From the NCBI RefSeq assembly GCF_000772955.1, contig NZ_JPVO01000049.1, positions 62,001 to 126,000 of the forward strand: a stretch of DNA of 64,000 bases, read 5' to 3'. Position numbers and translations under genes: made by a program. The first letter of the stretch is position 1. Each line of letters starts with the position of its first letter. Origin of the DNA: Ureibacillus sinduriensis BLB-1 = JCM 15800 (GTDB taxonomy: Bacteria; Bacillota; Bacilli; Bacillales_A; Planococcaceae). The notes beneath the pieces are model-generated. The model was not told the DNA's origin. It saw only the letters and a program-made list of their open reading frames with translations, and made no database searches. Of this stretch, positions 2,601 through 21,035 are shown in pieces.

Positions 2601-2630
2601 TTGACTTTCAAAAAATGGATATGCTACGCT
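2601..2630 (+). promoter_or_regulatory. Sigma-A promoter of the exporter leader
   Basis: TTGACT (2601-2606), an 18-base spacer and TACGCT (2625-2630) preceded by an extended TG. It sits about 40 bases before the leader-peptide ATG. Confidence 0.6.
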
Positions 2631-2670
2631 TTATAAGTAATTATAAATAAAGGAAAAGGAGGTTAGGATT

Positions 2671-2748
2671 ATGAGAATTAAATACATTTTGCCGCCAGCA
2701 ATTAAATATGATAATCCAAACCTACCTCGAGCTTTCTTTTATTTATAA
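2671..2748 (+). CDS. 25-aa leader peptide of the BmrCD-type exporter
   Basis: ATG 2671 with a strong AGGAGG nine bases upstream encodes 25 residues beginning MRIKYILPPAIKYDN and ending in RAFFYL. It is followed by two hairpins, the second a clear terminator. This is the layout of ribosome-mediated attenuation: slow or stalled translation under a ribosome-targeting drug changes leader folding and allows read-through into the exporter genes. B. subtilis bmrB plays this role for bmrCD. Whether this peptide is a sequence homologue of BmrB cannot be judged here; the gene order makes the analogy strong. Confidence 0.75.
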   Translation: MRIKYILPPAIKYDNPNLPRAFFYL

Positions 2749-2775
2749 CGAAGGACGCGCATAATTTTAATCGGA

Positions 2776-2802
2776 GGATACAGGTATTGGTTACTTGTAT
2801 CC
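2776..2802 (+). promoter_or_regulatory. Leader hairpin upstream of the attenuator
   Basis: GGATACAGGTA and TTACTTGTATCC form a stem just after the leader peptide stop. The TATCC of its 3' arm could instead pair with GGATA in the terminator's 3' arm, giving alternative folds. Confidence 0.5.
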
Positions 2803-2813
2803 TTTTACTATGA

Positions 2814-2847
2814 GCACCTATCTCACAGAAGGGATAGGTGCCTTTTT
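2814..2847 (+). terminator. Attenuator terminator before the exporter genes
   Basis: GCACCTATC (2814-2822) and GATAGGTGC (2833-2841) form a perfect 9-bp stem followed by CTTTTT. It lies between the leader peptide and the exporter, so it is an intrinsic attenuator and not the end of an upstream gene. Confidence 0.8.
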
Positions 2848-2885
2848 GTGCGCTTATAAGAAAGAATGGAAGAGGAGAGAGGATT

Positions 2886-2942
2886 ATGAAAAAGCGCTAC
2901 ACAAGGAAGTTATTAAAAAGAGAGTGTACAGATAGTGGATAG
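2886..2942 (+). CDS. 18-aa ORF between attenuator and exporter
   Basis: ATG 2886 follows a purine-rich GGAGAGAGG; the product is very basic (MKKRYTRKLLKRECTDSG). It lies after the terminator and 33 bases before the exporter ATG. It could be a second leader or a coupling peptide, but no homologue is recognised. Confidence 0.35.
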   Translation: MKKRYTRKLLKRECTDSG

Positions 2943-2975
2943 TGTAGTGAACACAAATTAGAAGAAGGTGCTTAA

Positions 2976-4721
2976 ATGTTTGAAGTATTATTCAAAATGA
3001 AATGGTTTTTTAAAGCTTATTGGAAGAGATATTTAATTGCCGTAGTGCTTTTAATGATTGCCAATGTGGCAGAAGTTATCCCCCCTTGGATAATAGGGGT
3101 TGCAATTGATGATATTGCCTTGGGGACAATGACAAAGGATTCTTTGTGGAATTATTTGTTATGGCTCGGGTTGCTCATAGTTTTCGGTTATGTGATCAAC
3201 TTTATGTGGCAATATCAATTATTTGGTGGAGCTCTTACGTTGGAGAGGATTTTTCGTAAGAAGCTAATGCACCAATTCTTGAGAATGACACCGACCTTTT
3301 ATGAAAAAAATCGTACAGGGGATTTGATGGCCCGTGCAACGAATGATCTAAATGCAGTCTCTTTAACTGCAGGTTTCGGGATCATGACGTTATTGGATTC
3401 CACAATCTATATGGGGGCCATTATCTTGGCGATGGGATTTTTAATTTCATGGAAGCTAACCATCTTTTCAATGCTTCCGATTCCCATAATGGCCGTCCTC
3501 ATGCAATATTACGGGAAAATTGTACATGAACGTTATATGAAAGCGCAGGATGCCTTTGGCGAATTGAATGATAATGTCCTTGAATCTGTTGCAGGTGTCC
3601 GTGTGATTCGTGCCTATGTACAAGAAAAGAAAGATGAAAAGCGTTTCGCTGATATGAGTGAAGAAGTTTACGAGAAAAATATCCATGTAGCAAAAATCAA
3701 TGCACTATTCGGCCCAATCACTAAAGTGGGTACCGGGATTAGTTATGTTGTAGCACTCGGCCTTGGTTCCTTCCTAGTATCCAGTGGGGAAATGACAGTT
3801 GGGCAGCTCGTTACTTTTAATGTGTATCTAGGTTTGGCAGTTTGGCCAATGATTGCAATCGGCGAACTAATCAATGTCATGCAACAAGGAAATGCTTCGC
3901 TGGACCGTGTACAAGAAACGTTGGATTATGAGCAGGATGTTCAAGATCCGAATGATCCAATCAAGGTTCATAGTCCAAACTCCCTTGGATTCAATGAATT
4001 CTCATTCCAATACCCGATGTCACAAATGATAAACTTGCAAAATATTTCCCTTCATGTCAAACGGGGCCAAACACTCGGCATTGTCGGGAAAACAGGTGCA
4101 GGTAAAACGACCTTCGTTAAGCAATTGCTGAAGGAATACCCGATGGCAGAAGGGCAATTTACGATCGGGGATGTTGATATTGCAAAGCTGACAAAGGAAC
4201 AGCTGCTTGAATGGATTGGCTATGTTCCCCAGGATCATGTGCTGTTCTCAAGAACGATCCGAGAAAATATCTTGTTTGGTAAAGAAGATGCTACAAAAGA
4301 AGAAATTGATGAAGCTGTCCAACTTGCTTATTTTGAGAATGACCTAAAAAATCTTCCATTAGGTCTTGAAACTTTGGTCGGCGAAAAAGGCGTTTCATTA
4401 TCCGGTGGGCAAAAGCAAAGGGTTTCGATTGCTCGTGCCATGATCAAAAATCCGGAAATCCTCATTTTAGATGATTCGCTATCTGCAGTAGATGCCAAAA
4501 CAGAAGCGAAGATTATTGAAAACATCGGCCGTGTGCGAAATGGCAAAACAACCATTATTACAACCCACCGTCTATCCGCGATTCAGCATGCGGATCACAT
4601 CATCGTTTTGGATGAAGGGAAAATAATCGAAGAGGGAACACATGCGGAACTTCTTCGAAATGAAGGCTGGTACAAGGAACAATATGATCGACAACAGCTA
4701 GAGGAGGTGCCTAGCGAATGA
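2976..4721 (+). CDS. bmrC: ABC exporter subunit with degenerate ATPase site (BmrC/YheI-like)
   Basis: First half of a heterodimeric multidrug ABC exporter (581 aa): six-helix transmembrane domain to about residue 310, nucleotide-binding domain from about 335. Walker A GKTGAGKT lies at 371-378, LSGGQ at 475-479, Walker B LILD ends at 499 and the switch motif is THR. The catalytic Glu position holds Asp500, the hallmark of the inactive-site partner in BmrC-type heterodimers. Ribosome site AAGGTG precedes ATG 2976. Its last four bases overlap the next gene (ATGA). Expression is probably set by the upstream leader peptide and attenuator. The family exports diverse drugs from the inner membrane leaflet. 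Confidence 0.9.
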   Translation: MFEVLFKMKWFFKAYWKRYLIAVVLLMIANVAEVIPPWIIGVAIDDIALGTMTKDSLWNYLLWLGLLIVFGYVINFMWQYQLFGGALTLERIFRKKLMHQFLRMTPTFYEKNRTGDLMARATNDLNAVSLTAGFGIMTLLDSTIYMGAIILAMGFLISWKLTIFSMLPIPIMAVLMQYYGKIVHERYMKAQDAFGELNDNVLESVAGVRVIRAYVQEKKDEKRFADMSEEVYEKNIHVAKINALFGPITKVGTGISYVVALGLGSFLVSSGEMTVGQLVTFNVYLGLAVWPMIAIGELINVMQQGNASLDRVQETLDYEQDVQDPNDPIKVHSPNSLGFNEFSFQYPMSQMINLQNISLHVKRGQTLGIVGKTGAGKTTFVKQLLKEYPMAEGQFTIGDVDIAKLTKEQLLEWIGYVPQDHVLFSRTIRENILFGKEDATKEEIDEAVQLAYFENDLKNLPLGLETLVGEKGVSLSGGQKQRVSIARAMIKNPEILILDDSLSAVDAKTEAKIIENIGRVRNGKTTIITTHRLSAIQHADHIIVLDEGKIIEEGTHAELLRNEGWYKEQYDRQQLEEVPSE

Positions 4722-6451
4722 GTACTAGTAAACGTTTATTCAAATATGCCATGTTTTTTAAAAAGCCAATTTTTATTGGATTAATATTGTTAACACTAGC
4801 TGTTTTTACGGATTTGGCAGGACCATTTATTGCAAAGCATATTATTGATCATTATATGACGCCAGGTTCAATTGAGCTCGAACCCATTATCAATTTGCTT
4901 ATCGTCTTTTTGGTTTTGGCTATTGCAACGGCGGTTCTTCGTTATTTTATGTTCATATATTTGCAAATTGGCGCAAATCGTATCATCCAAAAGTTGCGCA
5001 AGGATGTCTTTGGACATATTCAGACGATGTCCATTGACTATTTCGATAACTTGCCGGCAGGGAAAATTGTTGCTCGTGTAACGAATGATACAGAAGCCAT
5101 CCATAATTTATATGTCCAAGTGCTATCGCAATTTGTAACGAGCTTCATATCGATTTTGGGAGTTTATGTGGCTCTTTTCATCTTGAATGTGAAAATGGCG
5201 CTCGTCGCATTAATAGTAGTTCCAATCATCTATATATGGATGATTGCATATCGGAAGTACGCGTCTTCATATAATCATGTTGTCCGTACGAAAATTGCCG
5301 ATATTAACGCCATGATCAATGAATCCATTCAAGGCATGACAATTATTCAAGCGTTCAAGCGTGAAAAGCAGATGAAAGATGAATTTGCCGAGATGAATAA
5401 TGAACATTATGAATACCAAAGAAAACTATTATTTTTGGATTCCGCAACATCATTTAATTTAGTAAATATTTTGCGGTTATTGTTTTTTGTCATTTTTATT
5501 TATTATTTCGGTACGCAATCGATGACGACGGTTGAGGTGATTACAGCTGGAACGTTATATGCATTCGTGGATTATATAACGCGCTTGTTCGGTCCGATTG
5601 TAAATATCGTCAACCAATTTTCCCAATTGGAACGCTCTCTTGTTGCTGGTTCCCGTGTATTTGAGCTACTTGATCGCAAGGGCGAGGCAGTCAGTGAGGA
5701 ATCGATTCCAAGATATGAGGGGAACGTCGAATTCGAAAATGTATCATTTGCTTATAAGGACGATGATTATGTGTTGAAGAACATCAATTTCTCCGCCAAA
5801 AAAGGAGAAACAATCGCCCTTGTCGGTCATACAGGTTCAGGGAAAAGCTCGATTATGAACTTGCTGTTCCGTTTTTATGACCCGCAAAAGGGAAAAATCA
5901 TGATAGATGGCAAAAACATCTTATCGATTTCCCGCCAATCATTCCGGGAGCATATGGGCATTGTTTTGCAAGATCCATATTTATTCACAGGAACAATTGA
6001 AACGAACGTAAGTTTAAGAGATCCACGCATTTCAAGAGAAACGGTGGAAAAAGCGCTTGAGGCAGTTGGTGGGGAAAGAGTGCTGAAAAATCTCGAGAAA
6101 GGGCTTGATGAGCCTGTCATTGAAAAGGGAAGCACACTTTCCTCCGGCCAACGACAGTTGATTTCCTTTGCTCGTGCATTGGCCTTCGATCCAGCCATTT
6201 TGATATTGGATGAAGCTACATCGAATATAGACACGGAAACAGAAGAAATTATCCAGCATGCGATGGAAGTACTGAAAAAAGGAAGAACAACGTTCATCAT
6301 TGCCCACCGTTTATCTACAATCAAGAATGCAGATCAAATTCTAGTATTGGATAGAGGGGAAATTGTTGAGAGAGGTACCCATGAAGAACTTGTTGCATTA
6401 GGCGGTCGTTACGAAACGATGTACCGTTTGCAAGCTGGGGCGTTAAATTAA
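4718..6451 (+). CDS. bmrD: ABC exporter subunit with intact ATPase site (BmrD/YheH-like)
   Basis: Second half of the heterodimeric exporter (577 aa), translationally coupled to the first by a 4-base overlap. Transmembrane domain to about residue 310; Walker A GHTGSGKS at 370-377; Walker B LILDE with Asp498 and catalytic Glu499. Its signature motif is LSSGQ instead of LSGGQ. With Asp500 in the partner this gives one consensus and one degenerate ATP site, as known for BmrCD and LmrCD. It is shorter than B. subtilis BmrD (about 670 aa), lacking that protein's long insertion. A terminator follows at once. Confidence 0.9.
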   Translation: MSTSKRLFKYAMFFKKPIFIGLILLTLAVFTDLAGPFIAKHIIDHYMTPGSIELEPIINLLIVFLVLAIATAVLRYFMFIYLQIGANRIIQKLRKDVFGHIQTMSIDYFDNLPAGKIVARVTNDTEAIHNLYVQVLSQFVTSFISILGVYVALFILNVKMALVALIVVPIIYIWMIAYRKYASSYNHVVRTKIADINAMINESIQGMTIIQAFKREKQMKDEFAEMNNEHYEYQRKLLFLDSATSFNLVNILRLLFFVIFIYYFGTQSMTTVEVITAGTLYAFVDYITRLFGPIVNIVNQFSQLERSLVAGSRVFELLDRKGEAVSEESIPRYEGNVEFENVSFAYKDDDYVLKNINFSAKKGETIALVGHTGSGKSSIMNLLFRFYDPQKGKIMIDGKNILSISRQSFREHMGIVLQDPYLFTGTIETNVSLRDPRISRETVEKALEAVGGERVLKNLEKGLDEPVIEKGSTLSSGQRQLISFARALAFDPAILILDEATSNIDTETEEIIQHAMEVLKKGRTTFIIAHRLSTIKNADQILVLDRGEIVERGTHEELVALGGRYETMYRLQAGALN

Positions 6452-20764: not shown

Positions 20765-21035
20765 AGCCCTCCACTCCTCACATATAATGTAAGGGGCGAA
20801 AGGCAAACTTATCATACTTACGCGGTACCACCCTTATTCGTTGCAAAACCTCTGGTTGTGCAACCTCTAAGCAAATGCGTAACGTGCATGACTCGGAAAG
20901 GCATACTCTTAATTTTCAGCCGATCTATTCTGGAGTGGAACCACAATCGCAGAAAACACTGATTTTCACCAACCATCAGCTCTCTAAAGATTTCAAACGA
21001 ACGAGCATGTCTCCGTCATAATATTTTTCGTTGAT
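20765..21035 (-). promoter_or_regulatory. T-box riboswitch upstream of serA, probably serine-specific
   Basis: On the minus strand the leader shows AGAGAGCTGATGGTTGGTG (stem I top), two TCC triplets near 20932-20939 in the specifier region, the canonical GGTGGTACCGCG T-box (20832-20821), and a terminator stem made of CCCCTTACATT/GTGAGGAGTGGAGGG followed by CTTTTA (about 20790-20765). Uncharged tRNA binding would stabilise the antiterminator. TCC is a serine codon, which fits serA; the exact specifier position needs a covariance fold. Confidence 0.92.

Follow-up and report, generated by a model that had tools for sequence, protein, structure and literature searches.

The leader of the bmrCD-type exporter genes in the window, by which we mean the whole stretch of 64,000 nucleotides analyzed here, carries two small upstream open reading frames with an intrinsic terminator between them, and comparison of related leaders shows the second of these, uORF2 (also ORF2), to be coding, conserved and placed in cis, and to bear a termination signature. 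In the most likely reading, uORF2 acts in cis, is read out at translation termination and adds a second layer of control on bmrCD, by a mechanism that we infer; we assign a probability of roughly 0.55 to a two-tier leader in which slow or conditional termination at uORF2 tunes bmrC. An earlier note on this DNA had guessed that the second ORF might be such an added layer, and the guess gains strength from the finding that 172 of 215 non-redundant bmrC leaders have such an ORF (142 distinct peptides), which is coding and conserved at its end, its effect on bmrC being presumed. BmrCD is a well-studied multidrug exporter and the attenuator of Bacillus subtilis is a published model, which would be incomplete if a second conserved uORF does act between attenuator and gene.

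Organization of the leader and the exporter genes

As read from the sequence, the leader spans positions 2601-2975 of the plus strand and contains uORF1, a second hairpin, a terminator and uORF2, followed by the bmrC/bmrD pair at 2976-6451. The bmrC-like gene (2976-4721, Shine-Dalgarno (SD) sequence AGAAGG at 2963-2968) encodes an ABC exporter half of 581 aa that matches the YheI chains 8t1p_C (E = 8.9e-235) and 7m33_C (E = 6.4e-234), and the bmrD-like gene (4718-6451), which overlaps it by 4 nt, encodes a half of 577 aa that matches the YheH chains 8t1p_D (E = 1.5e-213) and 7m33_D (E = 4.2e-213). The PDB sequences below 1e-150 were solely B. subtilis YheI (BmrC) for the first half and YheH (BmrD) for the second; both halves of a heterodimeric BmrCD exporter are thus matched by solved proteins in the same gene order, which bears out the BmrCD-type exporter that had been placed downstream of the leader. 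The closest named relatives of the window BmrC belong to Ureibacillus and Lysinibacillus and are 94 to 86% identical. A search of the whole window with Rfam at gathering thresholds returned a T-box leader on the minus strand (20789-21028) as its sole match, and none in the bmrC leader.

A candidate promoter lies at 2601-2630 of the plus strand. Its −35 element, TTGACT (2601-2606), is present as claimed before, and by eye TTGACA occurs at a like position upstream of uORF1 in several relatives, but the −10 element TGCTACGCT (2622-2630) is poor, a sigma-A consensus scan of 2560-2980 gave no site, and an exact search for TTGACT-N16-18-TATAAT gave no match in the window. The promoter in the window itself is therefore weakly backed by the consensus.

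The 25-aa peptide with a strong ribosome site was read directly: uORF1 (2671-2748, plus strand) has an ATG at 2671-2673, 25 codons and a TAA, is preceded by the SD sequence AAGGAGG at 2656-2662, and encodes MRIKYILPPAIKYDNPNLPRAFFYL, with a 100% match at 2671-2745. In the fold of 2645-2755 (−27 kcal/mol, z = −3.7), the SD/start region and the 3′ end of uORF1 pair with each other (hairpin at 2645-2744), a self-pairing that was absent from the earlier note's list of features. The hairpin and terminator on that list withstood shuffling. The second hairpin (2773-2805), with 14 bp and a short U run after it, has −18.1 kcal/mol and z = −5.7; the intrinsic terminator (2814-2847), an 11-bp stem at 2814-2841 with its U-tract, has −18.6 kcal/mol and z = −4.9, and for each of them 0 of 200 shuffles was as stable. 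A terminator scan found 1 against 0.2 expected, and the entire stretch 2637-2850 folds with z = −7.6. By shuffles as well as by comparison, hairpin, terminator and leader structures exceed chance. The window therefore shows the order of elements of a bmrB-type leader: a leader ORF, predicted to be translated, and then, here after a gap of 65 nt (uORF1 ends at 2748 and the terminator begins at 2814), an intrinsic terminator upstream of bmrC. The second hairpin directly precedes TTTT (2773-2810) and could serve as a pause site or as a first, weak terminator.

After the terminator, the 18-aa basic ORF was found as described before, at 2886-2942 of the plus strand. uORF2 has 18 codons and a UAG stop that ends 33 nt upstream of bmrC, encodes MKKRYTRKLLKRECTDSG, is preceded by the SD region GAGGAGAGAGG (2872-2882), and finishes in what comparison reveals as a [D/E]-[S/G]-G-stop end.

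Conservation of attenuator-like elements in related leaders

Leaders were taken from 55 bmrC homologues of named genomes and from further genomes of the family (247 genomes with a bmrC match at E ≤ 1e-160), the class (148 of 398) and genus g32 (30 of 43 matching genomes), the figures for family and class being genomes with a match, of which the leaders counted are those collected among the matches listed. Removal of a contig end (L020), six duplicates, and two leaders with no start codon at the aligned place (L120 and L254) reduced 187 leaders to 178; the final 215 add 37 of 56 further loci, the other 19 being duplicates. These sequences are related, so that the counts given here are not independent events. 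Shuffles were mononucleotide for the uORF1 calling set and for the accessibility of the bmrC site.

We called a uORF1 preceded by an SD in 172 of the 178 leaders, some calls being plainly wrong (that of L110 is ORF2 itself; L018 and L222 are other examples), and its stops are TAA in 91, TGA in 55 and TAG in 26 of 172. The 25-aa peptide of the window was found at E < 0.002 in 7 of 261 family genomes, all in the window's genus; uORF1 peptides differ between clades, and what is retained is mainly the pairing. Against dinucleotide shuffles, pairing of the SD/start region with the 3′ end of uORF1 had a mean z of −2.63, with 91 of 136 leaders below −2, and the same self-pairing measured over a slightly different stretch had a mean z of −2.68 (96 of 134 leaders below −2). 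As a control, both uORF1 stretches were paired with the ORF2-bmrC region, giving a mean z near 0. Because the paired letters vary from clade to clade (17 examples), it is the pairing of uORF1 that appears to be kept, and not its sequence. Between uORF1 and ORF2, a terminator-like hairpin was present in 130 of 136 leaders compared to 22 of 136 leaders shuffled once. Four leaders of other families (L239, L243, L244 and L246) have a uORF1-like ORF with self-pairing and no ORF2, with mononucleotide z values of −4.2, −3.6, −3.9 and −3.1, respectively.

The pairing that would connect uORF1 to the terminator was much less evident. In three examples from the window clade, the 3′ end of uORF1 pairs with the later leader, in the region of the second hairpin, at −15 to −21 kcal/mol. 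Over all leaders, this pairing had a mean z of −0.57 (13 of 134 below −2), and pairing of the uORF1 SD region with the later leader had a mean z of −0.82 (18 of 134 below −2). A classical antiterminator was also sought by equilibrium folding with a ribosome at 8 positions in each of 3 leaders, the seventh position being past the stop in two of the three, and the terminator formed in all 24 folds.

The earlier note had recognized the layout of ribosome attenuation and had proposed a comparison of leaders in relatives, holding that its reading would be refuted if neither the 25-aa ORF nor the terminator were conserved. Since relatives also have a uORF1 with self-pairing and a terminator-like hairpin, such a lack of conservation is not what we found, even though the 25-aa peptide itself is confined as described and antiterminator pairing is weak overall. 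Taken together, these comparisons support the attenuator reading in its anatomy, not in its mechanism.

Conservation and coding character of uORF2

uORF2 was called by a rule that used its C-terminal motif and an SD but not the type of stop, so that counts of Gly and D/E are partly set by construction, while the type of stop and the base after it are independent of the rule. With this rule, uORF2 was present in 138 leaders of the 178-leader set, compared to 1 of 1780 shuffled leaders; the rule applied at four shifted positions gave 1, 0, 1 and 0 of 178, and on the reverse strand 0 of 178. Named genera with uORF2 include Ureibacillus, Lysinibacillus, Cytobacillus, Neobacillus, Siminovitchia and Paenisporosarcina, and in the final set its stop ends 15-44 nt before bmrC (median 34). 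Over the window and 55 named loci, which amount to 1.15 Mb of strand, a search for the motif ORF gave 48 hits, of which 47 precede bmrC and one is a chance hit in antisense. A profile search of 299 Bacilli genomes gave a match at E ≤ 1 in 106; among 30 profile loci examined, one of them the window's own, 11 adjoin bmrC, including the 8 best, as judged by BmrC comparison only.

By the calling rule, 43 of the 215 leaders are without uORF2, including three from named Ureibacillus, which indicates that uORF2 is dispensable. In L021 (Ureibacillus acetophenoni) and L064 (U. manganicus), uORF1 and the terminator-like hairpin remain and ORF2 is gone or a remnant, and these leaders offer a natural comparison for ORF2 function. 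L035, L122 and L187 are also without ORF2, and L267 has the motif and fails the start rule. In L110 (identical to the leader of L111; genus g11), an intact ORF2 lies about 165 nt further upstream, with extra sequence before bmrC. By eye, the ORF2 stop has been lost in L119 and L134 (G238 and G239, from the window's genus) and the remnant runs in frame into bmrC, whose start there reads TTG, giving open frames of 632 and 639 codons.

The pattern of substitutions argues that uORF2 is coding in its own frame. Over 906 close pairs, pN/pS was 0.43 and fell to 0.36 in the last eight codons, compared to 1.0-1.5 for four other readings of the region (1.3-2.1 over the last eight codons); in genus g32 the frame contrast was weaker (0.49 vs 0.76 and 0.68). 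Of the last 10 codons, 7 were most variable at their third position, as tallied in 138 leaders and not in 172, the first two positions of codons −1 to −3 being partly set by the calling motif. Four different Gly codons are used at the last position, and Ser is encoded by AGT, AGC and TCT. From family to family the body of the peptide is almost wholly different, as in MNKGVIILVPLPELESG, MKIKWMVFMLPAGEINSG and MNVVGAIGMMYTGDLEGG, and the end stays: the residues directly before the stop are conserved against a shuffle control that allows for the calling motif. The leaders of g13 that have ORF2, and L210, end in EGD and also stop at UAG. The first part is basic, with a median charge of +4 when the last six residues are left out.

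Among the first 56 leaders compared, uORF2 was present in 50, with 44 distinct peptides, and all 50 ended in Gly, a residue favored in choosing, and stopped at UAG. A strict rule of UAG, and hence of release factor RF1, held in these 50 of 50, then in 134 of 138 leaders, was broken in genus g32, and was dropped as universal. uORF2 stops at UAG in 141 of the 142 leaders that have it outside genus g32, and inside this genus, which is probably Bacillus, at UGA in 16, UAA in 10 and UAG in 4; for comparison, besides the uORF1 stops given above, 327 long ORFs at the 55 named loci and in the window end with TAA in 192, TGA in 78 and TAG in 57. With all three stops in use in g32, uORF2 does not depend on one particular release factor across its range. 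A pyrimidine (C or T) follows the stop in 133 of 138 leaders, and in 159 of 172 in the final set. On the evidence of these leaders, UAG is retained strongly over most of the range and is not essential, and the [D/E]-[S/G]-G end is the wider constant.

Alternative explanations for uORF2

The most serious alternative is that uORF2 is a mere site of ribosome loading or coupling, whose SD draws ribosomes and hands them to bmrC with a peptide that is irrelevant. We consider this unlikely, while granting that the arrangement would suit it: the ORF2 SD has a median of −9.2 kcal/mol compared to −6.4 kcal/mol for the bmrC SD (partly by construction, an SD being required in calling ORF2), the stop lies at the short distance from bmrC given above, and in the genome inferred to be B. 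subtilis it is 2 nt from the bmrC SD. Coupling of this kind does not account for last residues that are conserved while the body is not, for a pN/pS that is lowest at the end, or for a stop identity that is kept outside genus g32. A read-through of ORF2 or its fusion to bmrC was rejected on the even spread of its frame relative to bmrC (52/43/43 of 138).

A small trans-acting peptide made within the operon, such as a partner of the exporter, would also be a selected coding ORF with a basic first part beside bmrC, as uORF2 is. This appears improbable, given that the body is nearly unconserved between families, that the residues kept are mainly those adjacent to the stop, and that the identity and position of the stop are kept, which a trans-acting peptide would not need.

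We also weighed classical translation attenuation of the erm/cat kind, in which uORF2 would be a second antibiotic sensor and a ribosome stalled on it would free a masked bmrC site. Its position between attenuator and gene fits, and the two leader peptides of ermB (PMC8274638, abstract) are a precedent. Over 138 leaders, the ORF2 region did not on average mask the ribosome site of bmrC, which had a mean unpaired probability of 0.528 compared to 0.532 with upstream sequence shuffled by mononucleotides. A ribosome at the uORF2 stop changed this mean to 0.545; the gain exceeded 0.2 in 9 of 138 leaders, and 17 of 138 leaders were below 0.4. The +x+ motif of macrolide arrest was under-represented in ORF2, being found in 45 of 113 peptides against 61.6 in shuffled ones. 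A site that is no more masked than after shuffling and is hardly opened by a ribosome makes erm/cat control very unlikely as a general rule.

Finally, an RNA or DNA element (a hairpin or binding site) in place of a peptide is scarcely credible, for although by eye CTA..TAG can close a small hairpin in some clades, this hairpin is broken in the window clade, where the partner is ACA, GTA or GCA instead of CTA, and the pN/pS, the variable third positions and the three Ser codons all argue for coding.

A proposed two-tier mechanism

The reading that we prefer is regulation by termination at uORF2, downstream of an attenuator. In the first tier, the presence and position of a ribosome on uORF1 would decide how the RNA folds before the terminator, and ribosomes slowed by 50S antibiotics would allow RNA polymerase to read past it, as reported for B. 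subtilis bmrB; by analogy, the window leader would presumably be induced by 50S inhibitors too. In the second tier, transcripts that pass the terminator would carry uORF2, and the nascent [D/E]-[S/G]-G at the stop, mostly UAG plus a pyrimidine, may make termination slow or conditional. Acidic residues near the C-terminal end, and UAG or UGA with a C after it, may weaken termination further. While waiting at the uORF2 stop, beside the bmrC ribosome site, a ribosome could then tune bmrC initiation through re-initiation, queueing or protection of the mRNA. RF1 and RF2 are both slow in releasing a peptide with a C-terminal Gly according to Pierson 2016, as cited in the available text of PMC7246954. 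Ribosome profiling in E. coli showed similar occupancy over UAG and UAA in the available part of PMC5373646, which counts against an effect of stop type.

We presume both that termination on uORF2 is slow and that it affects bmrC. Because the bmrC site is not specially masked and the ORF2 SD is the stronger of the two, we favor a direct action of the ribosome held at the uORF2 stop on the neighboring bmrC site or on mRNA stability, which could be of either sign.

More tentatively, and with less than even confidence, we suggest that uORF2 represents a new class of regulatory uORF in bacteria, in which a minimal signal for arrest at the termination stage, [D/E]-[S/G]-G before a stop, lies downstream of a transcription attenuator and is kept in many Bacillales families and B. 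subtilis. The exporter would then be gated twice, by elongation on uORF1, which would set the RNA made, and by release or recycling on uORF2, which would set the protein made. If true, a uORF that is best conserved in the part occupying the peptidyl-transferase center at release would offer a simple, natural means of probing slow termination, and is amenable to testing in a standard laboratory strain.

Comparison with B. subtilis and other known systems

One genome (G651) encodes 102 of 102 residues of the PDB YheI, and its GTG-to-TAA frame before bmrC measures 162 nt, the length used for bmrB in PMC4191407; on these two grounds it was taken to be B. subtilis. After its terminator we found a 26-codon ORF, MKTNTEARAVRAKLDEKSCKEKIEGG, that starts at GTG, stops at UGA and ends 17 nt before bmrC. 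The available text of PMC4191407 makes no mention of a second ORF in the B. subtilis bmrCD leader, and a search of titles and the starts of abstracts, with most subscription journals outside its coverage, returned nothing plainly on the 26-codon ORF. In that available text (Reilman 2014), bmrB-bmrCD is under ribosome-mediated transcription attenuation induced by 50S inhibitors, and control by lincomycin was seen with pRM3-bmrB162, a construct that by its name ends with bmrB, before ORF2; its response suggests that ORF2 is not needed for the first tier.

B. subtilis bmrB-bmrCD thus resembles the window in its exporter pair, its leader ORF, its terminator ahead of bmrC and, in the genome taken to be B. 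subtilis, its uORF2-like ORF. It differs in that the annotated bmrB (GTG, 162 nt) contains the terminator, whereas uORF1 of the window ends before it. In the inferred B. subtilis leader L256 (bmrC −302 to −119), the annotated bmrB frame overlaps a 23-codon ATG ORF, MPRNLRVYQTVSYWRGKPFVLFS, that has a better-placed SD and is the positional equivalent of uORF1 elsewhere. At least 5 of 11 leaders of the B. subtilis group have an early stop in the annotated frame, yet pN/pS favors that frame (0.48 vs 1.21).

Three other resistance leaders can be set beside this one, each as described in the available part of its source. The vmlR leader of B. subtilis (PMC9226507) combines a uORF, an anti-antiterminator, an antiterminator, a terminator and translation attenuation, but has one regulatory uORF, with none mentioned after the terminator. 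ermB (PMC8274638) also has two small ORFs ahead of one resistance gene, but is described as translation attenuation, in an abstract that mentions no terminator. MsrDL (PMC10314930) is likewise the leader peptide of a resistance gene, and its ribosome stalls at the stop and blocks release factors; it is, however, the attenuator ORF itself and stops mostly at UAA, whereas uORF2 follows the terminator, stops mostly at UAG and is presumed to stall.

One mark of a termination-arrest leader, conserved residues immediately before the stop codon, was found in uORF2. The bodies of TnaC and SpeFL carry conserved sensor residues, whereas uORF2 is conserved mainly in its last residues and has no known ligand. 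What uORF2 would share with these two metabolite-sensing termination-arrest peptides, which are named in the available text of PMC10314930, is conserved residues that act at the stop codon.
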